64,000 nt of DNA, taken from contig JAFKIL010000006.1 of the NCBI GenBank assembly GCA_017306415.1, positions 62,001 through 126,000 on the forward strand, in the 5' to 3' direction. Below are positions 5,292 to 22,172 of the stretch, in pieces. Under the pieces are notes generated by a model that saw only the letters and a list, made by a program, of their open reading frames with translations, made no database searches and had not been told where the DNA came from. The position numbers and the translations under genes were made by a program. Within the stretch, counting starts at the first letter, position 1. Each line of letters starts with the position of its first letter. The stretch is from Microbacterium sp. GTDB lineage: Bacteria > Actinomycetota > Actinomycetes > Actinomycetales > Microbacteriaceae.

Positions 5292-5343
5292 AATCTTGCC
5301 GTTCTCTGAGCGTCCACGGCTATGAGGCTTCGCGTGTCGCCCG

Positions 5344-6504
5344 TCATCGCTGCGAGCTGAGGACGTCGAGCGCGCGCGCCACTCCCCCACCGACATCGAG
5401 GGGAAGGCCGAGGTCCAACAGTGTGCGTCCGAGGGCGGCCAGCCCGACGACGGAGTGGAACCCTCCTGCGGTCGGCCCCATGTGCGACAGCCGGATGAGG
5501 TTCCCCGCGCCCTGGCCGTGCGACAGCATCACGCCGTACTTGTGCCGCGCGTGATCCCGCACGACAGCGTTGTCGAGGTCGTCGGGGAGCCGGATGGAGG
5601 TGACGCACGCCGACATGATCTCCCGGCGCCGCGCCCAGAAGGCGAGGCCCATCGCCTCCGCACCCGCGATCGTCAGCTCCTGCGCGGCCGCATGACGTGC
5701 GATCACCTGATCCACGCCCTCCTCCAGCGCCTGGTCGAGCGCGGCCTCCAGCCCGTTGATGTCGGCGACCGAGGGCGTATAGGGGAAGCGGCCTTCGCCG
5801 AGCCACTTCTCCTTGATGTCGAGGATCGACAGATAGGAGTCGCGCGGCGCACCCGGGTTCGCGGAGATCCTCTCCCATGCGCGAGCACTGACGGAGACCA
5901 GGGAGAGCCCTGGTGCACCGCCGAGACATTTCTGCGGCCCCGTCACGACGTAGTCGAGGCCCCACTCGTCGACCAGGGTCGCCATGCCCAGGACGCCGGA
6001 TACCGAGTCGATGTAGGTGAGGATGCCGCGATCGCGGCACATCGGTCCGATCGACGCGACATCCGTCACGGTGCCCGATGGGGTCTCCGAGGCGACGAGG
6101 CACAGCATCTCGATCTCGGGGTGCGCGTCGAGGTACTCCTCCACCATGTCCGGAGTGACCGCATCGTCGTAGCCGACCTCGATCTCATGGAGGTGGGCGC
6201 CGAATCCGGAGATCCAGTATCCCGTTCCCTTTCCGAAGACACCCTGGACGAGGTTCAGGACGTGCATGCCGGGTGTGATGAGCGCGCGCAGCCCGGCTTC
6301 GAGCGCCAGGATCGCCTCACCCTGCATGATGAGCACGTCTTTGGTCGTGCGCATGACCTCCGCGACCTTGGCCTCGCATCGGCGGAAGGTGGCCTGGAAT
6401 TCGTCGTCGTAGTGGTACTGGATCGGTGTCGCAAGACCGGCAAGGGTCCTCGCCGTCACCTCGACGGGGCCCGCCGAGAGGGTGAACTCGAGCTTCTGCA
6501 TCAT
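5344..6504 (-). CDS. ppat: Pyridoxamine-pyruvate aminotransferase (class V PLP fold)
   Basis: It probably transfers the amino group of pyridoxamine to pyruvate, giving pyridoxal and alanine, so pyridoxamine can enter the B6 degradation route. The 386-residue protein belongs to the alanine-glyoxylate aminotransferase fold and follows the Mesorhizobium loti enzyme through its length: TLSAGPVEV at the N-terminus, QGEAILALEA (Glu63), SGVLG after IDSV (Asp166), GPQKCLGG with Lys192 at the position of the PLP-binding lysine, and RLSHMGPTAGG near the end. Bound pyridoxal acts as product in this family rather than as cofactor. The start is ATG 6504 (or 6501) behind an AGGAAGG site. It follows the importer genes closely, linking transport to this step. 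Confidence 0.85.
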   Translation of the reverse strand: MMQKLEFTLSAGPVEVTARTLAGLATPIQYHYDDEFQATFRRCEAKVAEVMRTTKDVLIMQGEAILALEAGLRALITPGMHVLNLVQGVFGKGTGYWISGFGAHLHEIEVGYDDAVTPDMVEEYLDAHPEIEMLCLVASETPSGTVTDVASIGPMCRDRGILTYIDSVSGVLGMATLVDEWGLDYVVTGPQKCLGGAPGLSLVSVSARAWERISANPGAPRDSYLSILDIKEKWLGEGRFPYTPSVADINGLEAALDQALEEGVDQVIARHAAAQELTIAGAEAMGLAFWARRREIMSACVTSIRLPDDLDNAVVRDHARHKYGVMLSHGQGAGNLIRLSHMGPTAGGFHSVVGLAALGRTLLDLGLPLDVGGGVARALDVLSSQR

Positions 6505-6528
6505 GTGATGCCTTCCTGTTCGTGATGG

Positions 6529-7461
6529 TCAGCGGGCGCCGCGCGTGTAGGGGGCGCCCAACGCGGGAGGCACCACGGAGCTGCGGGCGAAGAGGATCAG
6601 GGTGATCATCACCACGACGAACGGCAGCATCTGGAAGACGTCGGCCGGGATGGACACCCCGATGAGCTGCAGCGGGTTCTTCACCGCCACCGCGATGCCG
6701 TAGAGGAGCGAGGTCAGCACGATCCAGCCGACCTTGCCGCGCGAGAGCATCGTGATGACGATCGCCAGGAAGCCCAGCCCATTGGTCATGAAGGGCGTGA
6801 ACGTACCGGTCGTGAGGATCGACAGGTATGCGCCGCCGAGACCCACGAATGCGCCGTTGAGCAGGACGGCCTGCGAACGGGTGACCATCACACTTCCGCC
6901 CGCGGCATCCAGCGAGGACGGCTTCTGACCGGCGGAGCGCGTGGCGAGCCCCCAGTTCGTGCGGGAGAGCAGGAACGCGACCATGATGAGCAGGAGGATG
7001 CAGGCCCAGAAGATGCCGGACTGCCGGAAGATCGCCGGCCCGATCACGGGGATCTCCGAGAGCAGGGGAATCTTCCACGAGTTCGGCGGAATGCTCTGCG
7101 GGCTCTTGGAGAACGCCTGCAGATACAGGACGCTCGTCAGGCCCTCCCCGATCAGGGTCACGGCGAGGCCGACGACGATCTGATTGAGCCCCAGCCAGGT
7201 GTTCAGCACGAGCATCAGCAGGTTCGCCACCACGCCGCCGAGCAGGCCGCCGAGCATTCCCAGCCAGGCACTGTCCGTCCAGATGGCAGTCGCGTAGCCG
7301 GCCAGCGCGCCGATGAGCATCACGCCCTCGATGCCGAGGTTGAGCACACCGGACTGCTCGCCGATCGTCTCCCCCACGCTCGCGATCACCAGCGGCATCG
7401 TCTGCACGATGATCGACGCGATGAACACCGTCAGCACGCTCGCCGAGAGCAGGTCGCTCAT
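6529..7461 (-). CDS. ABC transporter permease (nucleoside/BMP-type), second subunit
   Basis: This 310-residue inner membrane permease is of the BPD_transp_2 type (PF02653), with about eight to nine hydrophobic segments and the characteristic NLGIEGVMLIGAL string near the N-terminus. That string is typical of the smaller permease (NupQ/YufQ class) of BMP-type purine nucleoside importers. The start ATG 7461 overlaps the stop of the first permease (ATGA), and the PPAT gene starts 25 bases downstream. Because the operon ends in a pyridoxamine aminotransferase, I infer a pyridoxine or related vitamer as substrate rather than a nucleoside. Confidence 0.88.
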   Translation of the reverse strand: MSDLLSASVLTVFIASIIVQTMPLVIASVGETIGEQSGVLNLGIEGVMLIGALAGYATAIWTDSAWLGMLGGLLGGVVANLLMLVLNTWLGLNQIVVGLAVTLIGEGLTSVLYLQAFSKSPQSIPPNSWKIPLLSEIPVIGPAIFRQSGIFWACILLLIMVAFLLSRTNWGLATRSAGQKPSSLDAAGGSVMVTRSQAVLLNGAFVGLGGAYLSILTTGTFTPFMTNGLGFLAIVITMLSRGKVGWIVLTSLLYGIAVAVKNPLQLIGVSIPADVFQMLPFVVVMITLILFARSSVVPPALGAPYTRGAR

Positions 7462-8579
7462 CGGGTGCCTCCCTTCACGAGTCCGAGTCGCCGGAAGGGC
7501 TGGAGGGCGGTCGCCCTCAATCCCGCGGGCAGATAGCTCTGCCCCAGGCGACGCTTCTCCCCCACGTACTCGGTGATCGTCATGAACACGAGGATCAGAC
7601 CGACGACGACGAGGAGGAAGTCCGAGTTGAGTCCGGTGTGCTGCGCCGCGAGGATCCCACCCGTGGCGAACACCGCGTAGAACGCGACGAGCGGGATGGA
7701 CGCCAGCGGACTCAGCCGAGCGAGGAACACGAACGGCATCACCGCGTCGCCGTACGCGGGATTCCAGTTCGCGCGCTGGTACGTGTAGTGGCCCAGCACG
7801 TCGACCGAACCGGCGAGGGCGATGAGCGCACCCGACACGGAGAACAGGAGCAGGACCATCCCGGTGCTGCTGATGCCGACGTGCTGCGCCGCCTTGGGGC
7901 TGAAGCCGAAGACATCGAGCCGGACGCCGAAGGCGGTGCGGCTGAACAGGAACTGCGCCGCGATCGCGAGCAGGATCGCGATGATGACGCCGATGTGCAC
8001 CCTGGTGTCGCCCAGGAACGGCAGGAGCGCGTTCCCGTCGATCACCGCGGTCTGGGGCGCCGGCACCTTCGGATCGCGGAACGGCCCCTTGATGAGCAGG
8101 TTCACCACCCCCTCGGCGATGAACGACATCACCAGCGAGGTGATGATCTCGTTGGTGCCGAATCGCGCCTTCAGGATGGCGGGCAGGAGCGACCAGGCCG
8201 CGCCGACGAGCACCGAGCCGATGAGCACGATCACCATCACCGCCCAGCCCGGGAGCACGGGAGTGAGGATCGGCGCGAATCCCGCGGCGACCACCGATCC
8301 GAGGAGGTACTGCCCGGCGTATCCGAGATTCCAGAGCTGGCCCCGGAAGGCGAAGGTGAGACCCACCGCGATGATCAGCAGCGGCGCCATCAGGACGAGG
8401 CTGTCCTGCCAGTTCGTTCCGGTGATGCCGTACTTCCAGACCCCCCAGAAGAAGTCGAACGGGTTCTTCCCCATGGCGGCGATGATGAGGCCCGCGACGA
8501 CGAGGGCCAGCACGACCGGGAGCACGGCGCGGACGACGGCCGTGGTCGCGTGACGCCACCGAGAGGTCTTCGCGGCCAT
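7458..8579 (-). CDS. ABC transporter permease (nucleoside/BMP-type), first subunit
   Basis: This 373-residue permease has an N-terminal membrane anchor followed by the BPD_transp_2 core. It contains FRGQLWNLGYAGQYLLG and FGTNEIITSLVMSFIA, both hallmarks of the larger permease (NupP/YufP class) of BMP-type importers. ATG 8579 shares one base with the stop of the ATPase gene (TGATG), so ATPase and both permeases are translationally coupled. The C-terminus is a charged tail of about 40 residues that probably faces the cytoplasm. Confidence 0.88.
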   Translation of the reverse strand: MAAKTSRWRHATTAVVRAVLPVVLALVVAGLIIAAMGKNPFDFFWGVWKYGITGTNWQDSLVLMAPLLIIAVGLTFAFRGQLWNLGYAGQYLLGSVVAAGFAPILTPVLPGWAVMVIVLIGSVLVGAAWSLLPAILKARFGTNEIITSLVMSFIAEGVVNLLIKGPFRDPKVPAPQTAVIDGNALLPFLGDTRVHIGVIIAILLAIAAQFLFSRTAFGVRLDVFGFSPKAAQHVGISSTGMVLLLFSVSGALIALAGSVDVLGHYTYQRANWNPAYGDAVMPFVFLARLSPLASIPLVAFYAVFATGGILAAQHTGLNSDFLLVVVGLILVFMTITEYVGEKRRLGQSYLPAGLRATALQPFRRLGLVKGGTR

Positions 8580-10174
8580 CAGTGGACTCCCTCGATCGCG
8601 CCCGTCATGAATTGCCCCACTCGCTCCGCCGTTCCCCGGCCATCGTTGGGCACGTCGCCGACGATCTCGCCGCTGGAGATGACCACGATGCGATGAGAGA
8701 GCTCGATGAGCTCATCCAGGTCCGTCGACATGAGGAGCACGCTGCCCCCCGCATCCGCGAAGTCGCGAAGGATGTCGCGCACCAGCCCCACGGTCTTCAG
8801 GTCGAGTCCGTACGTCGGCTTGTTCACCACGACGAGCTGGGCCCCGTCGCCGAGCTCGCGCGCCAGGAGCACCTTCTGGATGTTTCCGCCGGACAGCGTC
8901 CCCACCCGTGTGGCGGGCGACGGGGTCTTGATCCCGTACTCGCCGATGAGCCGCTCCGCCTCTGCGTTGACCGCGCGGCTGTCGAGCTGTCCGAGGCGCC
9001 AGAACGGGGCCTGACCGATGCGCTTGAGGACGAGGTTCAGGGCGACGGACATGCTGCCGACGGTGCCCTCGTGCAGACGATCGTCGGTGATGTACCGTAC
9101 GCCCAGCTGCTGCCGGCGACGGACGCCGAGACGCGTGATATCGGCGCGGCCGAAGCGGATCGTGCCGGAGGACGCGCCCCGCTGACCGGCGATGACCTCG
9201 GCGAGGGCGCCCTGACCGTGACCGTCGATCCCGGCGACGCCCAGGATCTCTCCCTCGTGGACGGCGAGGCTCACACCGGCGACGTCGACGTCGTTCCCGC
9301 GGCCTTTCGTCGTGACGTCGACGAGCTCGAGCCGGGTGGGATGGGTGGCGAGATCGAGGTAGCCGACCTCGCGCCGGGCGGCCGTGGCGCCCGCGAGCTC
9401 CGCCGCCTCGTCTCCCGCAGCTCTCAGGTCCTCGCCGAACATCGCGGCGAGGATCCGGCTCTGCGCGGCGGACTCGTCGTACGAGGCGAGCTCCTCCGCA
9501 TCGATGAACCCGGCGTTGCGCCCGCCGCGGAGCACGGTCACGCAATCGCCCATGCTGTAGGCCTCGCGGAGCTTGTGGGTGACGAAGACCACCGCCAGTC
9601 CCTGCGCCTTGATCTGGGCGACCGACATCGCCAGACTCTCGATCGCCTGGGGGGTCAGCATCGAAGTGGGCTCATCGAGCACCAGAAGGCGGCTCCCCTT
9701 CCACATCGCCTTCGCGATCTCGACCTGCTGCTGCTGGCCGAGGCCCAGATCGCCGGCGAGCGCCTTCGGGTCGATATCGGCTCCGAGGAGATCCGACAGC
9801 GTCTCCAGACGCTCCGCGGCGCGCTTCTCCGCGAGGAGGAAGCCGGTCTCGCCGAGCATCAGGTTCTCCAGCACGGTGAAGGAGGGGACCAGCGTCGAAT
9901 GCTGGTGCACGACCCCGATGCCGAGATCCACCGCCGCCTTGGGCGAGTTGATCGCCGTGGCGACGCCATCGACCTCGATGCGACCGGAGTCGGGCTGCTG
10001 CATCCCCGCCAGGATGCTGATCAGCGTCGACTTGCCTGCCCCGTTCTCGCCGAGGAGGCAGTGCACCTGCCCGCTCACGATGTCGAGGGAGACGCGGTCG
10101 TTCGCCACGACTCCGGGGAACGCTTTGGTGATCTCCTTCAGTGAGATCACTCCGGGATCGATGGCGGGGCTCAC
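8579..10174 (-). CDS. ABC transporter ATP-binding protein with two ABC domains (NupO-like)
   Basis: This 531-residue tandem ATPase energises the importer. Domain 1 has Walker A GENGAGKS (about residues 42-49), an LGLGQQQQVEIAKAM signature variant, and Walker B LLVLDEPTSML. Domain 2 has a degenerate Walker A (GIDGHGQG), signature LSGGNIQKVLLAREL and VVNKPTYGLD in place of Walker B. Such a catalytically weak second domain is normal for sugar- and nucleoside-type tandem ATPases. The gene begins 123 bases after the binding-protein gene, and a strong hairpin lies in that gap. Domain structure gives the transporter type with confidence; the vitamer substrate is inferred from context. Confidence 0.9.
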   Translation of the reverse strand: MSPAIDPGVISLKEITKAFPGVVANDRVSLDIVSGQVHCLLGENGAGKSTLISILAGMQQPDSGRIEVDGVATAINSPKAAVDLGIGVVHQHSTLVPSFTVLENLMLGETGFLLAEKRAAERLETLSDLLGADIDPKALAGDLGLGQQQQVEIAKAMWKGSRLLVLDEPTSMLTPQAIESLAMSVAQIKAQGLAVVFVTHKLREAYSMGDCVTVLRGGRNAGFIDAEELASYDESAAQSRILAAMFGEDLRAAGDEAAELAGATAARREVGYLDLATHPTRLELVDVTTKGRGNDVDVAGVSLAVHEGEILGVAGIDGHGQGALAEVIAGQRGASSGTIRFGRADITRLGVRRRQQLGVRYITDDRLHEGTVGSMSVALNLVLKRIGQAPFWRLGQLDSRAVNAEAERLIGEYGIKTPSPATRVGTLSGGNIQKVLLARELGDGAQLVVVNKPTYGLDLKTVGLVRDILRDFADAGGSVLLMSTDLDELIELSHRIVVISSGEIVGDVPNDGRGTAERVGQFMTGAIEGVH

Positions 10175-10230
10175 AGGTGGGTCTCCTCGTGCTTCTGTCT
10201 GGCGCGGCGTGCGCCGGGTCGAACGGGACC

Positions 10231-10273
10231 CCTGTCGGGCCGGTGCCCGTCATCCGGGCGCCGGCCCGACAGG
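10231..10273 (-). terminator. Strong intra-operon stem-loop after the binding-protein gene
   Basis: Arms 10231-10249 and 10255-10273 pair over 19 base pairs with a single G-T and a five-base loop. The inner 13 pairs on each flank (CCTGTCGGGCCGG / CCGGCCCGACAGG) are perfect. There is no U-run. It lies between the binding-protein stop and the ATPase start, as in other ABC operons where such a stem protects the upstream mRNA or partly terminates transcription, giving excess binding protein. That role is inferred. Confidence 0.75.
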
Positions 10274-10296
10274 GTCGGACTGGCTGATCGGGCGTG

Positions 10297-11391
10297 CTAC
10301 TTCTTCGCCGCGATGATCGCCTTCACCTCGCCGGAGTTCGCCGCGCCCTTGGGCTTGATCGTCCCCGCGTCGATGGACTCGGTCGCCTTCTTGACGGCCG
10401 ACTTGATCGCGTCGGTCATGTTGTCGGTGTCCTGCAGGTAGAGACCGCTGTTGCCGACCGTGAGGTCGTAGTTCTTCGTGCCGAACGAGCCGTCCTCGAC
10501 ATCCTTGATCGCCTGGATGTAGGTGGGCGTGTAGTCCCAGACCACCGTCGTGAGCAGCGACTTCTGGTCCTTCAGGGCGGAGCTGACGTCACCGAGGTCG
10601 GCGATGTACTTGACGCCCGCGTGCTCGTTGATCGACTGGATGTATCCGAGCGTGGCACCGTCTCCCATGCCGAAGACGACGTCCGCGCCACCGGAGATCA
10701 CGGTGTCCACTGCGGCCTTGCCGCCCGCGGAGTCGGCGTAGCCGTCGGCGCTGATCTGGCCGAAGAGCACCGTGATGCTCGGGTCGACCGAATAGACGCC
10801 CTCGGCGAAGCCGGCCGCCATGTCGAGCCAGTTCACGTCGTCCGCGGAGATGACGACCGCCACGGTCTTGACCTTCGTCGCCATCGCCGCCGCGATGCCC
10901 GCGAGGTAGCCGCCCTGCTCGGCCTTGACGAGCGCCTCGGCGATCTGGCCGGGAACGGGGTCGATGCCCGAGTCCTGGATGAGGATCGGAACCTTGGTCT
11001 GCGCCGCGACGGTCTTGGCGGCGACGCCGTAGCCGGAGGCGTGCGCGATCACGAACTGGGCGCCGTCGTCCTGGATCACCTGGTTCAGAACGGTCTCGGT
11101 GTTGTCCCATCCGGCGTCGGCGACCGACACGTACTTGAGCTTGAGCTTGTCAGCGGCGGCCTTGGAGTTGGCCAGGCCGATCTGGTTCCAGCCGAGATCG
11201 GTCTCGTTCTCGGGCCCGACCCATGCCATCTTGGTGACGGTGTGGCCACCCGATGCCGACGCCGACGAGCCGCCGGAGTCGCCGCGGGACGAGCACGCGG
11301 CGAGGGTGATCGCGAGCGCCGATGCTGCGAGGAGAGCCGTGGCGACCTTCGTGGAGCGCAGGAGCCGACTGCCTTGCTGTGAGTGGTTCAT
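10297..11391 (-). CDS. BMP family ABC transporter substrate-binding lipoprotein
   Basis: This 364-residue extracytoplasmic binding protein has a lipoprotein signal (hydrophobic stretch, lipobox LAAC with Cys near residue 33), a Ser/Gly-rich linker and then a basic membrane protein (PF02608) domain starting near TVTKMAWVGP. BMP proteins normally bind purine nucleosides. It is the first gene of the ATPase-permease-permease-PPAT operon. The promoter region carries the inverted repeat at 11452-11489, which has the same 38-bp span as the one in front of the divergent degradative operon. I therefore infer a B6 vitamer ligand. A nucleoside ligand remains possible. Confidence 0.9.
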   Translation of the reverse strand: MNHSQQGSRLLRSTKVATALLAASALAITLAACSSRGDSGGSSASASGGHTVTKMAWVGPENETDLGWNQIGLANSKAAADKLKLKYVSVADAGWDNTETVLNQVIQDDGAQFVIAHASGYGVAAKTVAAQTKVPILIQDSGIDPVPGQIAEALVKAEQGGYLAGIAAAMATKVKTVAVVISADDVNWLDMAAGFAEGVYSVDPSITVLFGQISADGYADSAGGKAAVDTVISGGADVVFGMGDGATLGYIQSINEHAGVKYIADLGDVSSALKDQKSLLTTVVWDYTPTYIQAIKDVEDGSFGTKNYDLTVGNSGLYLQDTDNMTDAIKSAVKKATESIDAGTIKPKGAANSGEVKAIIAAKK

Positions 11392-11451
11392 CTGGGGGGT
11401 TCCTCTTCCTGGTAGCGGTGACCGTTCGAACGCCGAGCGGGCTAGAGCGCG

Positions 11452-11489
11452 TTCTTATAATGTGCAACGGTGATGTGACCATATGAGAA
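11452..11489 (-). promoter_or_regulatory. Operator candidate of the importer operon (38-bp inverted pair)
   Basis: The left arm TTCTTATAATG (11452-11462) and the right arm CATATGAGAA (11480-11489, reverse complement TTCTCATATG) face each other over a total span of 38 bases. The site lies about 60-100 bases upstream of the binding-protein start. The same span and arm sequence recur at 12145-12182 in front of the 4-pyridoxolactonase gene. A common regulator is inferred. Confidence 0.55.
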
Positions 11490-11581
11490 TTGTTCGCCGC
11501 GGTCAACGCTCTGAGCGACCGTTTACCAATCCGAAACAGGCGTTACACGCCCGCAACACACACGGCTGAGCATTGTCGGGA

Positions 11582-11596
11582 CCGACAGACTGTCGG
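11582..11596 (+). promoter_or_regulatory. 15-bp perfect palindrome before lipoprotein gene
   Basis: CCGACAG (11582-11588) and CTGTCGG (11590-11596) are exact reverse complements around a single A, ending 21 bases before the lipoprotein start at 11618. It could be an operator or a small hairpin in the leader. Nothing similar was seen at the other promoters in the cluster. Confidence 0.4.
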
Positions 11597-11617
11597 ACGG
11601 ACAGGTGGAGGAGCTGC

Positions 11618-12067
11618 ATGCGATCGACCAGAGCACTGTTCCCGCTCGCGCTGCTCGCAGCCGCGGTGCTCGCCCTCGGCGGATGCGCGGCCGAGAACCA
11701 GGGGGATCCGACACCCACCGCGCCGACGGCGCTCGCGTCGAGGGACGCCGCTGCGCTCGCCATCCTCGCCCGCGTGGCACCGCGCACGTCCACGATCGAC
11801 GCGAAGCTGGCCGACTGGACCGAGTGCTGGCTGCCGAGCGAACACCTCATCCCCGCGGACGAGGTGTCGGACGCAACCACCTGGAAGGTGATCTGCCGCA
11901 TCCACTGGCACGAGGCCAACGGCACGAAGCGCTATCAGGACACCAACTGCATCGGCGATTTCGCGAAGAGCCCGATGCTCGATCACTGCTACCGCTGGGT
12001 CCACTACGACCTCGAGCCCGTGTACGCCGATCACCCGGGCGTGTTCGCCGGGTATCCCGACGACTGA
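11618..12067 (+). CDS. Hypothetical lipoprotein within the B6 cluster
   Basis: This 149-residue protein has an N-terminal hydrophobic segment and a lipobox ending at Cys (LALGGC, Cys near residue 22). The mature part is a small acidic domain rich in Cys and Trp (ECWLPSE, KVICRIHWHE, DTNCIGDF, DHCYRW), suggesting one or two disulfides outside the membrane. ATG 11618 has a GGAGGAG ribosome site; the frame is open further upstream but without such a site. It sits between the divergent importer and degradative operons. I do not recognise the family. A role next to the importer at the cell surface is conceivable but unsupported. Confidence 0.72.
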   Translation: MRSTRALFPLALLAAAVLALGGCAAENQGDPTPTAPTALASRDAAALAILARVAPRTSTIDAKLADWTECWLPSEHLIPADEVSDATTWKVICRIHWHEANGTKRYQDTNCIGDFAKSPMLDHCYRWVHYDLEPVYADHPGVFAGYPDD

Positions 12068-12144
12068 CGCCCGGCGGGCGCTCTGCGCGAGGAGTGTTTC
12101 CGCTCTGTAAAACCTCGATCCGGGGATTGCTTCCGATCCACGAA

Positions 12145-12182
12145 TTCTCATAATCTGATCAGCAATGCGGATAATGTGAGAA
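12145..12182 (+). promoter_or_regulatory. Operator candidate of the degradative operon (38-bp inverted pair)
   Basis: TTCTCATAAT (12145-12154) faces ATAATGTGAGAA (12171-12182, reverse complement TTCTCACATTAT). The outer six bases are perfectly inverted and the total span is 38 bases, exactly as at 11452-11489. It ends 13 bases before the 4-pyridoxolactonase ATG, so it overlaps the leader and perhaps the promoter. Confidence 0.6.
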
Positions 12183-12195
12183 AGGCGGCAGTCGA

Positions 12196-12954
12196 ATGAC
12201 CGATCCGAAGGTGTATCTGCTCGACGGCGGAACGCTCGTCATCGACGAGTCCGACGTGCATTGGCACATCAACCTGGGCAATCCGGTGCGCTTCCCCGTC
12301 TACTCCGTGCTCGTCGAACACCCGGATGGGCTGATCCTGTACGACACGGGGTACGACCTCGAGCACGTCCAGGCGGTCCTGCCCTTCGAACTCCCCGAGC
12401 AGACTCCCGAGCAGACGATCCCGGGGCAGCTCGCGAAGATCGGCTACACGCCGGGGGACATCGACATCGTCGTCAACTCCCATTTCCACTTCGACCACGT
12501 CGGAGGGAACAAGTTCCTCACGAACGCGACGCACCTGGTCCACAAGATGGAGCTGCGTCAGGTGCGCTACCCGGAGCCGTTCGAGCGCCTGGGCTACTCC
12601 GATCTCTCGTTCGATCTCCCGGGCGTCCGGTACAAGCCGATCTCGGGCGACTACGAGATCGCGCCGGGGGTGACCCTCATCGAGACGCCCGGGCACACCG
12701 CCGGCCACTATTCGCTTCTCGTGGAGTTCGAGAACGAGCGGAACATGCTGTTCTGCGGTGACGCCGCGTACACCCGCACCACGCTCGAGAAGGAGTGGAT
12801 CGCGGGGTTCCACCTCGACCCCGTCAAGTCGGTGGAAGCGATCCGCCGGCTCAACTACCTCGGGCGGGTCAAGGACGCGGACATCTACCCCTCCCACGAG
12901 CTCGAGCCGTTCCTGACCTGGAAGCTCGCGCCCGAGTACTACGGCGGAAACTGA
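12196..12954 (+). CDS. 4-pyridoxolactonase (MBL fold)
   Basis: It probably hydrolyses 4-pyridoxolactone to 4-pyridoxate in the cytoplasm with a dinuclear zinc site. The protein has 252 residues and starts MTDPKVYLLDGGTLV, very close to the Mesorhizobium loti enzyme. Metal ligands fall at the same numbers as I recall for that enzyme: His96, His98, Asp100 and His101 in SHFHFDH, then PGHTAGHYSLLVEF and the CGDAAYT aspartate. It lacks a loop of about 15 residues that the M. loti protein has after YSDLSF. It is first in the operon with pyridoxal 4-dehydrogenase, whose product is the substrate. The ATG is 13 bases after the operator repeat. Confidence 0.88.
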   Translation: MTDPKVYLLDGGTLVIDESDVHWHINLGNPVRFPVYSVLVEHPDGLILYDTGYDLEHVQAVLPFELPEQTPEQTIPGQLAKIGYTPGDIDIVVNSHFHFDHVGGNKFLTNATHLVHKMELRQVRYPEPFERLGYSDLSFDLPGVRYKPISGDYEIAPGVTLIETPGHTAGHYSLLVEFENERNMLFCGDAAYTRTTLEKEWIAGFHLDPVKSVEAIRRLNYLGRVKDADIYPSHELEPFLTWKLAPEYYGGN

Positions 12955-12992
12955 TCCACCCCCTGAGCCCGACAGAGAACGAAGGACATGCA

Positions 12993-13718: not shown

Positions 13719-13728
13719 GCGACCGCTC

Positions 13729-15279: not shown

Positions 15280-15280
15280 G

Positions 15281-16399
15281 ATGATCGAGGACGACCTGAT
15301 CGTCCGAGCCGTGGAAGCGCGGGATGCCGACCTGCAGGCCGTCTCCGCCTTCCTCCTCGCCCATCCCGAACTCGCCCACGAGGAGATCGAGAGCTCCCGC
15401 TTCCTCGTCGAGGTCCTGGAGCACGCGGGCTTCACGGTCGAGACCGGCGTGGCGGGTCTGCCGACGGCGTTCCGCGCGGAGCTCGACACCGGCTCCCCCG
15501 GCGGAACAGTGGGGCTCGCCGCCGTCTACGATGCGGCACCCGCGCACCGCACGCACGACGGAGCGACGATCGCCACGCACTCCTGCGGCCACTCCGCGCA
15601 GGCGGCCGGCGTCGTCACCGCAGCCCTGGCGCTCGCCGATCTTCGCGCCGAGCTGACGGGCACCGTCGTCGTCGTAGGATGCCCCGCGGACGAGATCCAC
15701 GCGCCCGAGACCCAGCGACGCGGCAGCGGCAAGGCGACCACCGCCGCCGGCGGTGCGTGGGCGGGCGTGGATGCCGCGCTCTACCCCCATCCGGAGTTCC
15801 TGGACGCCGTCTGGACCGAGACGCTCTGGATGCGACGGGAGACGGCGATCGTGGAAGGTGCGCGGACACTCCGCGACGACGTCGAGTGCGCCCCGCTGTC
15901 CGCCCTCGCACGGCTCACCGCGACCCTCGGCGGGCTCCCCCGCGCGAGCGTGATGCTCGAGACCCTCGTCGTCGACGGGGACGTCGAGGAAGGGTCCGGG
16001 CTCTCCCTCCGCGCGCAGTTCCTCACGTTCGCGCGGACCCACGACGAACTCGACGACCTCCTCGCGCCCGTGCGACACGCCCTCCCGGAGGCCGTGTGGG
16101 AGCGCGGCAACGAGATCGACGCCATCCGGCCGGATGAGCGCGTCGCAGAGGTCGTTCGCGAAGCGTTCGTCGCCGCCGGCCGTCCGATCCTCAGCGACAC
16201 GCCGCCCCTCCCCTTCGCGACGGACTTCGGAGCGGTCACCCGTGCGGTTCCGGCGGCGCTCGTGGGCGTCGGCCGCCCCGAGGGGTGGTCCTTCCATCGC
16301 GACGGGGGCGAAGATCAGTTCGCCGGGCCGGAGGGCGTGCAGATCGCCCGCGACATCGCGACGGTCCTCGCGCTCGCGGGCAGCCGGCTCATGGCCTGA
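15281..16399 (+). CDS. M20 family amidohydrolase/peptidase (AbgB-like)
   Basis: This 372-residue protein has the M20 plan: LAHPELAHEEIESS at the N-terminus, then AVYDAAPAH and HSCGHS (usual metal-ligand region), CPADEIH and a C-terminal GWSFHRDGG segment. It resembles AbgB/carboxypeptidase-type amidohydrolases that split N-acyl amides. ATG 15281 follows a strong AGAGGAGA site one base after the GMC stop, so it belongs to the degradative operon. No amide-bond step for it exists in the described pathway I except the final one, which has its own alpha/beta hydrolase. It may act on a B6 conjugate or be an alternative last-step hydrolase. The function is unassigned. Confidence 0.75.
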   Translation: MIEDDLIVRAVEARDADLQAVSAFLLAHPELAHEEIESSRFLVEVLEHAGFTVETGVAGLPTAFRAELDTGSPGGTVGLAAVYDAAPAHRTHDGATIATHSCGHSAQAAGVVTAALALADLRAELTGTVVVVGCPADEIHAPETQRRGSGKATTAAGGAWAGVDAALYPHPEFLDAVWTETLWMRRETAIVEGARTLRDDVECAPLSALARLTATLGGLPRASVMLETLVVDGDVEEGSGLSLRAQFLTFARTHDELDDLLAPVRHALPEAVWERGNEIDAIRPDERVAEVVREAFVAAGRPILSDTPPLPFATDFGAVTRAVPAALVGVGRPEGWSFHRDGGEDQFAGPEGVQIARDIATVLALAGSRLMA

Positions 16400-16405
16400 C
16401 TCCCA

Positions 16406-16439
16406 CGCACGGCAGGACCGGCCGCGCCCCTGCCGTGCG
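16406..16439. terminator. Bidirectional terminator between convergent operons
   Basis: CGCACGGCAGG (16406-16416) and CCTGCCGTGCG (16429-16439) pair perfectly over 11 base pairs around a 12-base GC-rich loop. It fills the 43-base gap between the stops of the convergent M20 and amidohydrolase genes. No T-run, as is common in actinobacteria. Confidence 0.8.
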
Positions 16440-16442
16440 GGT

Positions 16443-17156
16443 TCAGGCGCCGAGGAAGAGCCGCTGCGCGGTGCCGTTCATGACTGCCTCGAGATCGTCG
16501 GGCTCGAGCCCGGCGAGCTGCACCTTGAGCTGCTCGACCTTGGGCTCGTGCCACGGACCGTCCGACCCGTACATGACGCGATCCGACCCGACCTTCTGCA
16601 CGGCCTCCCTGATCTTCAGGCTCATCGGCATACCGCTCGTCTCGAGCCAGACGTTGGGGTGGCGCCCCGCGATGGCGATCGAGGCGTCGATGTAGACGAC
16701 GTTGCCGTGGCCCATGTGCCCGAGGATGATCTTCGCCTCGGGGAACTGAACGACCAGCTCCTCGATGCTCCAGGGCAGCGAGAAGATCGGATGCCCGCAG
16801 TGGATGAGAGCCGGGAGTCCGCGTTCGATGAGCAGCTCGATCACCGGCCACACCATCGGATCGTTGGGATGGAATCCATCCATGAGCGGGTGCAGCTTCA
16901 CGCCCCGGAACTTCGGGTCGTCCAGGAAGTCGCGCAGCTCGGGCACCGGGTTCCCCAGCTTCGGGTTCGCCCAGTACAACCCGTGCGCGCCGGGAAGGTC
17001 GGCGATCGTGCGCTGGACCATCGCGTTGTCCTGGTGGAACACCATCGCCGTGTCGATGTCGTTCGCCGCCAGGTAAGGGGCGAGCCCCGCCTGGTCGAGG
17101 TTGACCCCGAACATCGGGAAGTCGCCGACGTGGAAGTGGGCGTCCGTGATGGCCAT
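16443..17156 (-). CDS. Amidohydrolase family protein (TIM barrel, PF04909-like)
   Basis: This 237-residue metal-dependent hydrolase begins MAITDAHFHVGD, giving the H-x-H motif at the end of the first barrel strand. It continues with KLHPLMDGF, LIHCGHP and ILGHMGHG histidines and a late YGSDGPW aspartate, so a one- or two-metal amidohydrolase site is intact. It is short for the family (often about 280-300 residues) but has all motifs. ATG 17156 shares one base with the PEBP stop and has a GGAG site. It is the last gene of the operon that begins with the ring-opening monooxygenase. Its reaction in B6 breakdown is unknown; hydrolysis or decarboxylation of a ring-opened acid is possible. Confidence 0.78.
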   Translation of the reverse strand: MAITDAHFHVGDFPMFGVNLDQAGLAPYLAANDIDTAMVFHQDNAMVQRTIADLPGAHGLYWANPKLGNPVPELRDFLDDPKFRGVKLHPLMDGFHPNDPMVWPVIELLIERGLPALIHCGHPIFSLPWSIEELVVQFPEAKIILGHMGHGNVVYIDASIAIAGRHPNVWLETSGMPMSLKIREAVQKVGSDRVMYGSDGPWHEPKVEQLKVQLAGLEPDDLEAVMNGTAQRLFLGA

Positions 17157-17611
17157 CAGCGGCTCCACACCGCCACGAAGCGAGCCTGCTCGATCACGGC
17201 GTCGCCATACCGCTCGAGGAACTCCTCGCGGCTCGGCTCGCCCTCGACCGGGCGACTGAGGGCGTAGATCCAGAAGTAGTAGTGGTGCAGACCGTGACCC
17301 ACCGGCGGCTCGGGGCCGTAGTAGATCGGGAAGCCCGCGCCGTTCGGCGCGACCCGCACGCCCTCTGCGTCGGTGTCGAGCGAGCTCGCATCCGGCGATA
17401 CGCCGTAGACGACCCAGTGGGTGAAGCCGTGCGGCAACGGCGCATCCGGGTCGTGGCAGATGATCGCGTACTCCACGGTGCCCTCGGGGGCGCCGGAGAA
17501 CTCGAGGCGCGGCACCGAGTTGCCCCCGTCCGCGGTGAACTCGTAGGGGAACCTCTCCAGAGCGGTGATGTCGGGGCTCGAGATCGCGAGCTTGTCGAGG
17601 AACAGGGCCAT
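17156..17611 (-). CDS. YbhB/YbcL family Raf kinase inhibitor-like (PEBP) protein
   Basis: This 151-residue protein has the phosphatidylethanolamine-binding fold: SSPDITALERFPYEFTADGGN, then CHDPDAP, GFTHWVVYG and the HHYYFWIYAL strand that lines the anion-binding pocket. The DPDAP and GxxH signatures are both present. It is cytoplasmic (no signal peptide) and translationally coupled to the amidohydrolase. PEBP proteins bind small anionic ligands and are rarely embedded in catabolic operons. A role as binder or isomerase for an acidic B6 intermediate is speculative. Confidence 0.83.
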   Translation of the reverse strand: MALFLDKLAISSPDITALERFPYEFTADGGNSVPRLEFSGAPEGTVEYAIICHDPDAPLPHGFTHWVVYGVSPDASSLDTDAEGVRVAPNGAGFPIYYGPEPPVGHGLHHYYFWIYALSRPVEGEPSREEFLERYGDAVIEQARFVAVWSR

Positions 17612-17627
17612 CCACTCTCTCCTTTCG

Positions 17628-18488
17628 TCAGTGATGCAGTACGGGATTCCGGTCGGGGAGCAGCCGCTCGAGCTCATCGGCGACCAGGTCGGGGTGCTCC
17701 TCGGGGATGTAATGGTCGGCGTCCTCGGCGACGACCCAGCGATCGTCGGGCCGGTCGGCGACCGCCTGCTCCCAGGCCGCGACGCTGACGATGCGGCTGT
17801 CGCGGCCGCGGATGCTCGCCATCGGGGCCGTGACGTCCCGGAACTCCGCGTCCCACGGGGTGCGGAAGCCGTGGATGAGCTGCCGCATCGCCCCTGGATC
17901 GGCGAGCGGCCACCAGCTGCCGTCGGGTCGCTGCGCATACCCCCACCGTGCGCGCCGCCGGACCGCCGCGGGAAGGATGCGCGGATACCGGTCGCGCAGG
18001 TACTGCTCGATCGCGGCGGTGCCGGCGAAGCCGCGATACCCTCCGTCGACGCGCTCGGCCAGCTCGTCCAGCACGGTGGCTTCGACGTACGGGGTGTAAT
18101 CGACCGAGAGCACTCCGGCCACCCGTTCGGGATGCAGGGCGCCCGCGAGCCACGCGTTGCGCCCGCCCAGAGAGTGTCCACCCACCACGGCGCGCTCGAT
18201 CCCGAGCGCGTCGAGCACCGTGACGACGTCGCCGGCGAAGTCCGGACCGGTGTACCCCGTGGCCGGTTTGTCGCTGCGACCGTGGCCGCGTTGATCGAGC
18301 GCGATCACCGTGGCGGACGAAGCGAGCCGGTCGGCGATCGGCTCCCACACGGCGTGGTTGGCCGACGTGCCGTGCAGCAGCACGACGGCCGGGCCCTCGC
18401 CGCGCACCCGGAACGCCACGTCGACCGCGGCGCCCCGGGTCCGGATGAGACCGTCCGCGATCGGCTCCAGGCCGACCGTGCCGGTCAT
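17628..18488 (-). CDS. 2-(acetamidomethylene)succinate hydrolase (alpha/beta fold)
   Basis: It probably catalyses the last step: hydrolysis of 2-(acetamidomethylene)succinate to acetate, succinate semialdehyde, ammonia and CO2. The 286-residue protein has LLHGTSANHAVW (oxyanion side), the nucleophile elbow GGHSLGG, RNAWLAG, and a C-terminal DADHYIPEEHP histidine. The segments LDQRGHGRSDKPATGY and VDYTPYVEA closely match the Mesorhizobium loti enzyme as I recall it. ATG 18488 shares one base with the stop of the dehydrogenase upstream. The gene lies inside the operon that carries the preceding ring-opening step. Confidence 0.86.
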   Translation of the reverse strand: MTGTVGLEPIADGLIRTRGAAVDVAFRVRGEGPAVVLLHGTSANHAVWEPIADRLASSATVIALDQRGHGRSDKPATGYTGPDFAGDVVTVLDALGIERAVVGGHSLGGRNAWLAGALHPERVAGVLSVDYTPYVEATVLDELAERVDGGYRGFAGTAAIEQYLRDRYPRILPAAVRRRARWGYAQRPDGSWWPLADPGAMRQLIHGFRTPWDAEFRDVTAPMASIRGRDSRIVSVAAWEQAVADRPDDRWVVAEDADHYIPEEHPDLVADELERLLPDRNPVLHH

Positions 18489-19426
18489 CAGACGTTCGGG
18501 ATCGAGGAGAGCGTCTTGCGAGCCGCGATGAGTCCGGTCACGATCTCCTTGCGCTTCTCGGCGATCGCCTCGGGGCCGTCGTACTCGTACATGCCGCCGC
18601 CGGTCTTGAAGCCGAGCGTTCCCGCCTCGATCTTCTCCTCGATCATGGCCGGCGTTCCCTTGCCGTCGGCCAGGTCGGCGTTGAGGTAGCTGGAGACCGC
18701 CTTGTAGATGTCGAGACCGGCCATGTCGAGCAGCCGGGTCGGGCCGATGACGGAGAGCTTGTAGCCGATCCCCCACTTGACGCAGGCGTCGAGGCCCTCG
18801 GGCGTCACGATGCCCTTCTCCAGGAGGTCCAGGCACTCCCGCAGGATCGCGTAGAGCACGCGGTTCTCGACGAATCCCGGCGTCTCCTTCTCGACGACGG
18901 GGACGTAGTCGAACGCCTTGACGATGTCGACGAGCTTGTCGACCAGGGCGGGGTCGGTCGCGTCGCCGGGGATGACCTCGATCATCGGGATCAGGTGCGG
19001 CGGGTTGGACCAGTGCATCCCGATCAGACGACCCGGCACGCGCATGCCTTCGGCCATCGTCGTGATAGGGATCCCCGAGGTGTTCGACGCGATGATGACG
19101 TCGTCCCCGACGAGGCCGCCCTCGAGCTCGCTCAGGAGCGACTTCTTCAGTTCGAGTCGCTCCGGGATCGCTTCGATGACGAGCTCGGCGCCGGCCACGG
19201 CTGCGGCGAGGTCCGTGCCGAAGTCGACGGAGCCGCCGTCGGCCTTCGGGGTGCCGACCGTCTCGAGCACGCCGCTGACCATCCCGTACGAGGACCTCGC
19301 GGCCTCGATGGCCTGATCGGAGATGTCGTAGACGCGCACGACGACACCGGCGCGAGCGAGCGTGGCGGCGATGCCGGGACCCATGGTGCCGGAGCCGATG
19401 ACGGCGGCGATCGAGGGAAGGCTCAT
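18488..19426 (-). CDS. 5-formyl-3-hydroxy-2-methylpyridine 4-carboxylate 5-dehydrogenase (HAD-like)
   Basis: This 312-residue homologue of 3-hydroxyacyl-CoA dehydrogenase has the Rossmann motif GSGTMGPG near residues 11-18 and the catalytic histidine in MHWSNPPHLIPMIEV. In Mesorhizobium loti this branch is the NAD-dependent enzyme that turns the 5-formyl compound into 3-hydroxy-2-methylpyridine 4,5-dicarboxylate. The strings SNTSGIPITTM, ETPGFVENRVLYA and LLDMAGLDIYKAVSSYLNADL follow that protein closely. No acyl-CoA genes are nearby, which also argues against a fatty-acid role. It is coupled to the hydrolase downstream. Confidence 0.86.
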   Translation of the reverse strand: MSLPSIAAVIGSGTMGPGIAATLARAGVVVRVYDISDQAIEAARSSYGMVSGVLETVGTPKADGGSVDFGTDLAAAVAGAELVIEAIPERLELKKSLLSELEGGLVGDDVIIASNTSGIPITTMAEGMRVPGRLIGMHWSNPPHLIPMIEVIPGDATDPALVDKLVDIVKAFDYVPVVEKETPGFVENRVLYAILRECLDLLEKGIVTPEGLDACVKWGIGYKLSVIGPTRLLDMAGLDIYKAVSSYLNADLADGKGTPAMIEEKIEAGTLGFKTGGGMYEYDGPEAIAEKRKEIVTGLIAARKTLSSIPNV

Positions 19427-19454
19427 CAGGATTCCTTTTCTTCGGGGGTGGGGG

Positions 19455-20234
19455 TCAGACGGCGGACGGGAGGCTGATCTGCGAGATCCCGATGCCCTGC
19501 AGCGCCTCGACGCGGTCGAGGCGACGGTTGAAGAAGGTCCAGAAGTTGTGCTGGGCCTTGGGCGGGTAGATGCGGTCGAACTTCTCCTTCGCCTCCTCGG
19601 GATCGGGGAGGATCGGCGTGAACCCGGAGGACTTCAGATCCACCTGGAAGCGAGCGGCCTTCTCGAGGAAGATCCCGGTCAGCGTGACCTCGGCGACCGT
19701 CGACCCGACGAAGGCGATGCCGTGGTTCGCGAGGAACAGCGCCTGCGCGTTGCCGAGCGTCTTCGCCGCGTCGACCCCGAGCGGCACGGTCGTGATGATG
19801 TGGCAGGTGTCGGCGAAGCGCGGCACGCCCTCGTAGGCGAACCAGATGCCATGGTTGTTGTACGGCAGCAGCTCCTCGGTGGACGAGGCCAGCACGGTGG
19901 CGAAATGCGAGTGCGAGTGGCCCACGAAGTTCACGTCGGGCCGGGCCCGCAGGATCTCCGCGTGCAGCGGCCACTCGATGTGGCGCAGCCCCGTCCCCTC
20001 GAGGACGTTGCCGTCGAAGTCGATCAGGATGAAGTCGTCGTCGACCACCTCGGACAGCGCGAGGTTGCCGCGCTTGAGCCACAGGCCGCGGCCGAACGGG
20101 TCGCGGTAGGACAGGTGCCCCATCGACATGTCGCCGTGGCCCTCGAGCTCGAGGATCCGGTGGGCTCGCGCCAGGTCGGCGAGCGTGCTCGCGATCGACC
20201 CGTCTTCGAGGTACTGGGTGTGGTGGTAGGTCAC
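19455..20234 (-). CDS. 3-hydroxy-2-methylpyridine 4,5-dicarboxylate 4-decarboxylase (class II aldolase fold)
   Basis: This 259-residue class II aldolase/adducin protein has metal ligands visible as the GHSHSHFA pair and the later NHGI histidine. In B6 pathway I such a protein decarboxylates the 4,5-dicarboxylate to 3-hydroxy-2-methylpyridine 5-carboxylate. Flanking genes for the preceding dehydrogenase and the following monooxygenase make this assignment strong. The start is GTG 20234 (reading TYHHTQYLEDG). It lies 27 bases upstream of the dehydrogenase gene on the same transcript. A generic aldolase is the alternative if the context were ignored. Confidence 0.83.
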   Translation of the reverse strand: MTYHHTQYLEDGSIASTLADLARAHRILELEGHGDMSMGHLSYRDPFGRGLWLKRGNLALSEVVDDDFILIDFDGNVLEGTGLRHIEWPLHAEILRARPDVNFVGHSHSHFATVLASSTEELLPYNNHGIWFAYEGVPRFADTCHIITTVPLGVDAAKTLGNAQALFLANHGIAFVGSTVAEVTLTGIFLEKAARFQVDLKSSGFTPILPDPEEAKEKFDRIYPPKAQHNFWTFFNRRLDRVEALQGIGISQISLPSAV

Positions 20235-20261
20235 GATCTCTCCCGGGGTAGTAGGTATCGC

Positions 20262-20849
20262 TCAGCCCGCGTCACGCGCGAGCACGTCGGCGACGGTGAT
20301 TCCGCCCACGCGGGCGTTGGGACGTCCTCCGGTCGCGACGGCGGCGATCACGACGAGCTCATCCGGGCGGGGGGCGTCCGGCAGCGCAATCGTAATCGCG
20401 TCGTAGTGCGATCGGACGTAGACCTCGTCCTTGTAGGCGAGAGGGATGTCGATGAGGGTTCCGGCGACCGCGACCTTCGACGCGGACGAGATCCATGCCT
20501 TGCCGCCCCCCACCGCATCGCGGAACGCGTCGCCGAACACGGTCGTGACGCACGCGACGAGATGTTCCTGTTCGCCGTCGATCCCGGCGAGGCCGCCCTT
20601 GCCGTACGACTCCACGGGGCGGCCGCCGAGGAGGGCGACGGCCCGACGTCCGAGTTCCGTGCCGAGGCTCGCGCTGGGTGCGGTCAGCGGCGAGAGGTCC
20701 TCGACCCACTGCCCCGCGAACGGGTTCGCGATCACGGCGGCGACGGCCGCCTTGACGAGCGGCTGCGCGGGGGCAGGGCCGACCTCGTGGAACGTCTCCT
20801 GGACGAAGGAGTGGATCGCGCGAACGCGGTAATACGGATCGATGCTCAT
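20262..20849 (-). CDS. Amino acid synthesis (AA_synth, PF06684) family protein
   Basis: This 195-residue protein has the conserved GKGGLAGIDGEQEHLVA motif and the ends typical of the AA_synth family, whose solved member is BB2672 from Bordetella; the enzymatic role is undefined. ATG 20849 overlaps the monooxygenase stop (ATGA), so it is translated together with the ring-opening enzyme. The family often lies beside amidohydrolases in catabolic operons, and an amidohydrolase ends this one. It may process a ring-opened intermediate. It has no counterpart in the described pathway. Confidence 0.82.
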   Translation of the reverse strand: MSIDPYYRVRAIHSFVQETFHEVGPAPAQPLVKAAVAAVIANPFAGQWVEDLSPLTAPSASLGTELGRRAVALLGGRPVESYGKGGLAGIDGEQEHLVACVTTVFGDAFRDAVGGGKAWISSASKVAVAGTLIDIPLAYKDEVYVRSHYDAITIALPDAPRPDELVVIAAVATGGRPNARVGGITVADVLARDAG

Positions 20850-21982
20850 ACGGCCACCTCGTGACGCTTCGGGTCGGTCGGATCGTAGAGGGCCGTCTCG
20901 AGGATGTCCCCCTGGAACTGGGATCCTTCGGCCATCTGGCGAGTGTCCGCGTAGTACTGCGAACGGTCTTGCGCGCGGTCGGTGTAGGGACGCTCGAGCC
21001 GCTCCCAGTCGATCAGCGCCTGGGCGAGGTCGGCATCGCTGGCAGCGGTCGCCGCCTCCGCGAGGGTCCACGCGTTCTGCATGGCGGTGCCGGCGCCCTG
21101 CGCGAGCGCGGGGCACATCGCGTGCGCGGCATCGCCGATGATCGCGACCCGGCCTTCGGTCCAGTGGTCGACGCGCGTGGTCTGGTAGCCGTAGTAGCGA
21201 CCCGGGAGCTCTGCCGCCTCCTCGAGGATCGGCGCGAGGTGGGGGAAGCTCGCGGTCCACAGGTCAAGGTCGATCGGCACGCGCGAGCCCTGTGCGTCGT
21301 CGACCGGCGCCATGAGGGCGATGTACACCTCGTCCTCGTTGCAGGGAACGTAGAGGACGCGGAGCACGCGCGGCTCGAGATTCCAGAAGTCGATGTAGTT
21401 GTCCCACTCGGTGTCGGGCTCGAGGCGCTGGAGGTCGGCCTTGCGCCGGGGCACGAGGAAGCGCGTGATCCCGTCCCGCGACCGCTCGCGCTTCAGCGGG
21501 ATGTCCAGCGAGTCGCGGACGGCGGAGTTGACGCCGTCCGCACCGACGACCAGGTCGGCCTCGATCGTGTCGCCGTCCGCGAGCGTGACCACGCCCTCAG
21601 GAGTGGCTCCGGCGATCTCGGAGCCCGAGATCACCTCGACGCCGGCCTCGCGCGCGGCCGTGAGCAGGGTGCGGAAGAGGTGGGGGCGGGTGACCGAGAT
21701 CCACCGCACGCCCTCCATCTCCTCCTGCGACTTGATGGAGTTGTTCATCCGGGTCTCGTACGCGGGTGAACGCATCGCGCGGGACTCGAGGTCGTGCGTG
21801 GCGCCGAGCTTGTCGAGCACGCGCAGGCTGTTGCCCCAGAGCACGATGCCCGCGCCCTCGGTCCTCAGCTCGGGCGAGCGTTCGTGCACGCGCACCTTCC
21901 ATCCCCGCTTGGCGAGTGCGGTGGCGGCCGTGAGCCCCGCGAATCCGGCTCCGGAGACCTCAGCGCGTCGTCCTGTCGTCAT
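20846..21982 (-). CDS. 2-methyl-3-hydroxypyridine-5-carboxylate oxygenase (FAD monooxygenase)
   Basis: This enzyme would open the pyridine ring with O2 and NADH, giving 2-(acetamidomethylene)succinate. The 378-residue length fits the M. loti MHPCO (about 379). The FAD motif GAGFAGLTAA lies near residues 11-20, and the second site is VAIIGDAAHAMCPALAQGAG with the substrate-pocket residues of this group. The segments YETRMNN, VPRRKADL, WDNYIDFWNLEPRVLRVLY and PCNEDEVYIALMAP follow MHPCO closely. ATG 21982 has a GAGGGGA site; the long upstream reading has no homology. It is the first gene of a six-gene operon, with a TTCTCGTATG operator-like site about 50 bases upstream. Confidence 0.88.
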   Translation of the reverse strand: MTTGRRAEVSGAGFAGLTAATALAKRGWKVRVHERSPELRTEGAGIVLWGNSLRVLDKLGATHDLESRAMRSPAYETRMNNSIKSQEEMEGVRWISVTRPHLFRTLLTAAREAGVEVISGSEIAGATPEGVVTLADGDTIEADLVVGADGVNSAVRDSLDIPLKRERSRDGITRFLVPRRKADLQRLEPDTEWDNYIDFWNLEPRVLRVLYVPCNEDEVYIALMAPVDDAQGSRVPIDLDLWTASFPHLAPILEEAAELPGRYYGYQTTRVDHWTEGRVAIIGDAAHAMCPALAQGAGTAMQNAWTLAEAATAASDADLAQALIDWERLERPYTDRAQDRSQYYADTRQMAEGSQFQGDILETALYDPTDPKRHEVAV

Positions 21983-22043: not shown

Positions 22044-22172
22044 GAGTCTCCTGATTCTGGATGTCGATTGCAAGATCTGGTCGGCGATTGGGTGGACGTT
22101 TTACACGTCCGTAACAGGAGTCGCCGCAGTCGTCCCGTCCGCGCGCTCGGCGCGCACTCGAGCCCCTCACCC

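Follow-up and report, generated by a model that had tools for sequence, protein, structure and literature searches.

A predicted vitamin B6 degradation cluster of the pathway I type with GlnR-type boxes in a Microbacterium genome

Does an actinobacterial genome encode the breakdown of vitamin B6 by the route known from Mesorhizobium loti as pathway I, and does it do so in full? This question is raised by a 64,000-nucleotide stretch of a Microbacterium sp. genome (contig JAFKIL010000006.1, positions 62,001 to 126,000; hereafter the window), in which the initial annotation had recognized eight enzymes for consecutive steps from pyridoxine and pyridoxamine to succinate semialdehyde. The region resolves into a cluster of 18 genes at 4503-21982 of the window, with an IclR-family regulator gene at one end and a ring-opening oxygenase gene at the other. 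We read it, with a probability of roughly 0.82, as a Microbacteriaceae catabolic cluster that would import B6 vitamers and degrade them along a route like pathway I. Orthology, conserved catalytic residues and conserved gene order give good support to B6 degradation of the pathway I type; the claim of consecutive steps, on the other hand, does not hold, as the conversion of 4-pyridoxate to the 5-formyl compound requires a 4-pyridoxic acid dehydrogenase, and one step of the pathway is therefore skipped in the cluster. Because this dehydrogenase is missing, the cluster is not a full member of pathway I, and we interpret it as a nitrogen-regulated variant of it.

All eight enzyme frames are open where they had been placed and belong to the families proposed for them, with the correction that the minus-strand hydrolase frame listed at 17628 has its start at about 18488. 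Ten further genes lay outside the earlier list, namely those for the IclR regulator, four importer subunits, a lipoprotein, an M20 hydrolase, an amidohydrolase, a PEBP-like protein and a PF06684 protein. We searched the eight enzymes with phmmer against 177,635 distinct PDB sequences, comparing the score of each match with that of the next different enzyme, and obtained identities to M. loti LU through its loci L042 and L116. For seven of the eight, the named M. loti pathway I enzyme is the top PDB match. These are the pyridoxamine-pyruvate aminotransferase (PPAT; 5344-6504, minus strand; 2z9u, 321 bits versus 117; 44% identity), the 4-pyridoxolactonase (12196-12954, plus; 3aj3, 267 versus 134; 49%), the SDR-type pyridoxal 4-dehydrogenase (12993-13718, plus; 3ndr, 238 versus 191; 50%), the GMC-type pyridoxine 4-oxidase (13729-15279, plus; 3t37/4ha6, 554 versus 271; 54% to M. 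loti PNOX), the (E)-2-(acetamidomethylene)succinate hydrolase (AAMSH; 17628-18488, minus; 3kxp, 203 versus 85; 42%), a homologue of the 5-formyl-3-hydroxy-2-methylpyridine-4-carboxylate dehydrogenase of the 3HCDH family (18488-19426, minus; 4om8, 314 versus 153; 51%) and the ring-opening oxygenase MHPCO (20846-21982, minus; 3alj, 382 versus 94; 53%). The lactonase and the SDR enzyme additionally exceed the equivalog cut-offs of the NCBIfam models NF047925 (419 bits versus 325) and NF047923 (356 versus 325). AAMSH retains its catalytic residues: the seven named in PMC3538738, mapped with a +2 shift from the published numbering that was deduced from the common spacing of the residues, all fall in columns that are conserved across both phyla when no more than one exception is tolerated in each group (23 actinobacterial and 55 other sequences).

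The presence of an importer and of control sites, also part of the initial annotation, is borne out. On the minus strand, from 11391 downward, the genes code for a BMP/PnrA-type substrate-binding protein (10297-11391; PF02608; NF047927, 401.8 bits, cut-off 400), an ATP-binding protein with two ATPase domains (8579-10174; NF047930, 767 bits, cut-off 670), and two permeases (permease 2 at 7458-8579; NF047929, 446 bits, cut-off 400; permease 1 at 6529-7458; PF02653), so that three of the four subunits exceed the NCBIfam cut-offs for B6 transporters. PPAT follows, and at the end of this row the IclR-family gene (4503-5351, minus; PF01614/PF09339) adjoins it, an adjacency kept in L092 and L093. The plus-strand row, from 11618 onward, comprises the lipoprotein, lactonase, SDR, GMC oxidase and M20 hydrolase genes; the second minus-strand row runs from 21982 downward through MHPCO, the PF06684 protein, a class II aldolase homologue, the 5-formyl dehydrogenase, AAMSH, PEBP and the amidohydrolase. 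A single contig of M. loti LU carries the same catabolic genes and, downstream of them, those for the importer, lactonase, PPAT and pyridoxal dehydrogenase (PLDH), and the likeness extends to the importer (33-48% identity), the PF06684 protein (60%) and PEBP (53%). The window cluster differs in lacking 4-pyridoxate dehydrogenase, in a decarboxylase only 32% identical to that of M. loti LU, in its GlnR boxes, its extra lipoprotein and amidohydrolases, and its rearranged gene order; furthermore, the M. loti operon is adjoined by a GntR-type gene where the window cluster has IclR, although an IclR-like gene (29% identical) adjoins the M. loti PLDH.

Reading every reaction and transport step from orthology, residue conservation, synteny and the boxes, we propose the following route. 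The importer (6529-11391) would take up B6; PPAT would convert pyridoxamine, and the GMC oxidase pyridoxine, to pyridoxal, which the SDR enzyme would oxidize to 4-pyridoxolactone for hydrolysis to 4-pyridoxate by the lactonase. The 4-pyridoxate would then be oxidized at its 5-hydroxymethyl group by an enzyme still to be assigned, whereupon the 3HCDH-family dehydrogenase would yield the 4,5-dicarboxylate and the class II aldolase-family protein would decarboxylate it. Finally, MHPCO would open the ring and AAMSH would release acetate, ammonia, CO2 and succinate semialdehyde. Actinobacterial degradation of pyridoxine is known from Microbacterium luteolum, where it likewise starts with pyridoxine 4-oxidase; its pyridoxal dehydrogenase, however, belongs as we take it to the aldo-keto reductase family, whereas that of the window is an SDR. 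The earlier statement that such a cluster is not well described was too strong: equivalogs for the lactonase, for the SDR dehydrogenase and for each of the four importer subunits exist in NCBIfam, so NCBI curators have already modelled this kind of cluster, although among open-licence PMC papers we found none on an actinobacterial B6 degradation cluster. What is new here is thus the nitrogen link and the pathway hole, the cluster kind itself being already known.

To place the cluster in context, we used a scan with an MHPCO alignment of four sequences, which gave at least 79 named loci, each with up to 10 kb per side; among the matches listed, 22 are actinobacterial (L011-L032) and 57 are others, nearly all alphaproteobacterial. 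The 22, together with the window and two congeners (G007 and G021), make up the 25 actinobacterial loci compared. MHPCO, the PF06684 protein, the aldolase homologue, the 5-formyl dehydrogenase and AAMSH occur in the same order on one strand in all 25 (AAMSH of L028 being cut by a contig end), and PEBP in 23 of them (not found in L022, cut off in L028). Since genomes of other genera show this gene set again in a fixed order, a chance arrangement need not be considered. The core genes and their order are also those of the clusters in Naasia, Herbiconiux, Microbacterium sp. Se63.02b and other Microbacteriaceae, and most of these clusters have boxes; relative to the window their core proteins are mostly 53-91% identical, the lipoprotein 39-61% and the binding protein 46-67%. 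The order from IclR to the lactonase is identical in Microbacterium sp. Se63.02b and Naasia aerilata.

These loci fall into two layouts. The full layout, defined by the lactonase and SDR genes, accounts for 20 of the 25; both genes are visible in the locus in 18, whereas contig ends truncate L020 and L028, which we placed here because of lactonase matches elsewhere in the genome, the match for L028 covering no more than 94 of 252 residues. The GMC oxidase is visible in 16 full-layout loci, with none in L030 and L032 within the 21 kb examined. In Microbacterium sp. Se63.02b this oxidase (L017:15604-17140; L092:2-1269) appears as two overlapping, frameshift-like pieces, possibly through a sequencing error. 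The small lipoprotein (11618-12067, plus), whose alignment shows four invariant cysteines and which found no match in Pfam and NCBIfam searches, is present in 17 of the 20 full-layout loci and in none of the five others. The latter show a reduced layout (G007, G021, Microbacterium marinilacus, Pseudoclavibacter sp. RFBB5 and Arthrobacter hankyongi): they share an ATPase, a permease and an NMT1-type binding protein (importer gene families checked in L031), together with the core operon and IclR; within the stretches compared, these are the only conserved genes. A 4-pyridoxolactonase orthologue was found in none of the five reduced-cluster genomes, Arthrobacter having a single 33% match.

The skipped step recurs across the actinobacterial clusters compared. 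Neither the M. loti-type 4-pyridoxate dehydrogenase nor the M. loti-type decarboxylase is the best match in any of the 25 loci within the stretches compared, and both occur in 52 of the 57 other loci; of the remainder, L089 ends short, and the alphaproteobacterial L056, L064, L075 and L085 have MHPCO and AAMSH without these two or the 5-formyl dehydrogenase. The latter four probably degrade another 3-hydroxypyridine. The GMC oxidase of the window was considered for the vacant step and rejected, as it groups with PNOX in a tree built by a quick method; its identity to M. loti 4-pyridoxate dehydrogenase is 37%.

A possible, still tentative, explanation is that the 3HCDH-family dehydrogenase oxidizes 4-pyridoxate twice, first from the alcohol to the aldehyde and then to the acid, and so takes over from the GMC dehydrogenase. 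Enzymes of this family usually oxidize alcohols, and it is the sole dehydrogenase conserved in all five reduced clusters, whose genomes lack the lactonase orthologue. At a threshold of 1e-40, which did recover the pyridoxine oxidase of the window, no GMC protein matching 4-pyridoxate dehydrogenase was found in the genomes of G021 and Pseudoclavibacter (G059). With the lactonase missing from the reduced genomes, and a GMC from some, their lower operon needs a starting compound that is either imported or made in another way; our guess is 4-pyridoxate, a B6 waste product of animals. Should that be the start, we infer that in G021 and G059, if not more widely, the first oxidation falls to a core enzyme, most likely that of the 3HCDH family. 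On the other hand, the presumed catalytic residues match those of the M. loti enzyme, which acts on an aldehyde, and the reduced clusters may import something else.

A rather doubtful alternative is that 4-pyridoxate dehydrogenase is encoded elsewhere, for instance by the GMC gene at G000:C11:478103-479698, which would make this plain pathway I with one gene moved. That unlinked GMC protein shares 41-44% identity with 4-pyridoxate dehydrogenase of M. loti LU and lies on its side of the GMC tree, and comparable proteins are encoded away from the cluster in reduced-cluster genomes (full-length in G007, 44%, and in Arthrobacter, G060, 41 and 42%; a partial match of 38% in M. marinilacus, G058). 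However, four unlinked GMC proteins from three genomes are about equally distant from 4-pyridoxate dehydrogenase (40-42%) on long branches, and G021 and G059 retain the lower operon with no GMC match at 1e-40.

The decarboxylase is the one enzyme for which the M. loti counterpart is not the best match: M. loti HMPDdc (2z7b) comes seventh with 57 bits, while other class II aldolase-family entries top the list at 85-88 bits. The protein (19455-20234, minus; PF00596) is thus a probable decarboxylase by position and superfamily rather than by clear orthology. Columns H106, H108, H171 and E87, presumably the metal-binding and acid/base residues, are conserved both in this homologue and in HMPDdc. 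In the tree, which used 14 of 52 HMPDdc sequences, each of the two is a tight clade, of 25 and 14 rows respectively, with a stem of 1.8 and 3.1 changes per column, and treekit warns of long branches meeting; the homologue may be either a very diverged HMPDdc orthologue or a separate recruitment. The 237-residue Amidohydro_2 protein (16443-17156, minus; PF04909), whose family includes ortho-hydroxy acid decarboxylases, was considered as an alternative HMPDC decarboxylase and rejected, since its gene occurs in nine of the 25 loci and that of the aldolase homologue in all 25. The M20-family gene (15266-16399, start approximate, plus; PF01546) is found in ten. These two accessory genes vary among the 25 clusters: both are present in the window and three Naasia loci (L011-L013), M20 alone in six, the amidohydrolase alone in five (the single-gene loci being L014, L015, L017-L020, L022, L023 and L025-L027), and neither in ten. 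They tend to substitute for each other and may have related jobs.

A motif search before the importer gene recovered TGTTTC-N6-GTAA in 14 of 16 upstream stretches; an AT-rich, promoter-element-like motif before MHPCO (14 of 25 loci) was dropped in favour of it. The window contains the motif five times at one mismatch or fewer, as against 0.27 expected, a count reached by none of 100 shuffles: two sites lie between the importer and lipoprotein genes (11522-11557, plus), one before the lactonase gene (12096-12111, minus), one before the oxygenase operon (22100-22115, plus) and one at 36022. Across 29 actinobacterial stretches there are 34 matches, 33 of them near a cluster or importer gene, with 2, 0 and 4 in first-order Markov controls. 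Read on the other strand the motif becomes TTAC-N6-GAAAC, which resembles published GlnR boxes, given in PMC10704036 as gTnAc-n6-GaAAc and t/gTAAC-n6-Gc/aAAC. Using a strict form, [TG]TNAC-N6-G[ATC]AAC, with the consensus drawn from PMC10704036 and PMC3087709, we obtained 37 matches in the 25 loci, as against 1 for the reversed pattern; 34 of the 37 are upstream of a cluster gene or of the second importer, at a distance of no more than 350 bp. Strict boxes precede all three cluster promoters of the window and a promoter in 17 of the 25 loci, matches that are not independent because the loci are related. A weight matrix built from 29 sites, to which the reduced clusters contributed none, gave scores of 21.2 and 22.5 for sites some 110 bp ahead of the importer operon in two of the reduced clusters, a weak site in a third (10.6) and none in the remaining two; in the 57 other loci no score reached 20 and three reached at least 15. 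As a positive control, the single amtB of the genome and the best-scoring of its glutamine synthetase genes have GTAAC-N6-GAAAC upstream.

This control and the match to published boxes make GlnR the better reading as owner of the motif; IclR, though a possible owner too, is in our reading a likely substrate sensor. Given the boxes at the cluster promoters, at amtB, at the glutamine synthetase gene and in 17 of the 25 loci, B6 probably serves as a source of nitrogen under a predicted GlnR-type control, and the gene set is probably switched on under nitrogen limitation from its three promoter regions. The fifth site of the window, a box at about 36021-36036, precedes a glutamine synthetase-like gene (36121, PF00120); glutamine amidotransferase and glutamate synthase-like genes come next and run to 40494, forming a row that we take to resemble operons of the gamma-glutamylmethylamide/N-methylglutamate type.

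Several observations weigh against a B6 catabolic cluster under nitrogen control. The 4-pyridoxate dehydrogenase gene is absent from the window cluster; PPAT (NF046070, 402 bits, cut-off 600), the 5-formyl dehydrogenase (NF042925, 402, cut-off 500) and permease 1 (NF047928, 330, cut-off 465) stay below their NCBIfam cut-offs; and Tyr54 of M. loti MHPCO, presumably an active-site residue, is replaced by Val in 90% or more of the actinobacterial sequences. The aldolase homologue is sister to HMPDdc with a support of 96/76 (not starred). With regard to regulation, strict GlnR-type boxes near cluster genes are missing from eight of the 25 loci, the second glutamine synthetase gene has no upstream box, and three of the six exact genome-wide matches to TTAC-N6-GAAAC (reversed control, 1) are not at recognizable nitrogen genes.

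Going further, one may picture a shortened, GlnR-controlled B6 nitrogen pathway in which double oxidation by the 3HCDH enzyme is combined with a separately recruited aldolase-type decarboxylase, with reduced NMT1-importer clusters that scavenge 4-pyridoxate, and with PF06684 and PEBP proteins as general parts of the pathway in both phyla; taken jointly, these propositions are unlikely all to be right. It is very improbable that the cluster degrades another substituted 3-hydroxypyridine which B6 merely resembles: MHPCO-AAMSH pairs do occur without the middle steps in L056, L064, L075 and L085, and the two accessory amidohydrolases are unexplained, but the lactonase, SDR, PPAT, pyridoxine oxidase and importer jointly indicate B6 vitamers and are clustered together in M. 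loti LU. The B6 cluster offers a gene-level model for B6 catabolism outside the proteobacteria and connects it with nitrogen supply; it also points to a single clear gap in the pathway and to two conserved proteins that are uncharacterized.

The first of these, the PF06684/DUF1185 protein (20262-20849, minus), has the highest identity of all cluster proteins to its M. loti LU counterpart. It is 60-70% identical between the window and six aligned alphaproteobacterial cluster copies, as compared with 53% for MHPCO, while extra copies in L032 and L033 are more distant (40-41%). The second is the PEBP/YbhB-family protein (17156-17611, minus; PF01161, 101 bits), likewise present in both phyla. In the four loci without the middle steps, PF06684 copies of about 70% are found in L056 and L075 and one of 44% in L085, and PEBP occurs in three; L064 has neither. 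On this small count the two genes tend to follow ring opening and hydrolysis and not the earlier steps. The solved PF06684 structures, 2qtp and 3byq, are described solely as uncharacterized, and a member of the family is now placed in a defined pathway.

At 1e-100, MHPCO is found in 25 of 398 sampled Microbacteriaceae genomes, including that of the window, from 17 of 85 genera, and at 1e-60 in three of 35 searched genomes of the genus, again counting its own. The window MHPCO is 79-81% identical to those of Naasia versus 74 and 71% to those of two congeners, and the layout is that of Naasia; thus, the cluster has likely moved between genera or been patchily lost. A PdxS-family (PF01680) gene for B6 synthesis is present in the same genome, and the cluster therefore need not serve vitamin supply. 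Just past the IclR gene, a serine beta-lactamase-family gene (3134-4282; PF00144) shows no sign of belonging to the cluster. Near the far end of the window, at 55408-63981, where the G+C content is lower, lie two very long minus-strand frames of 2086 and 760 aa.

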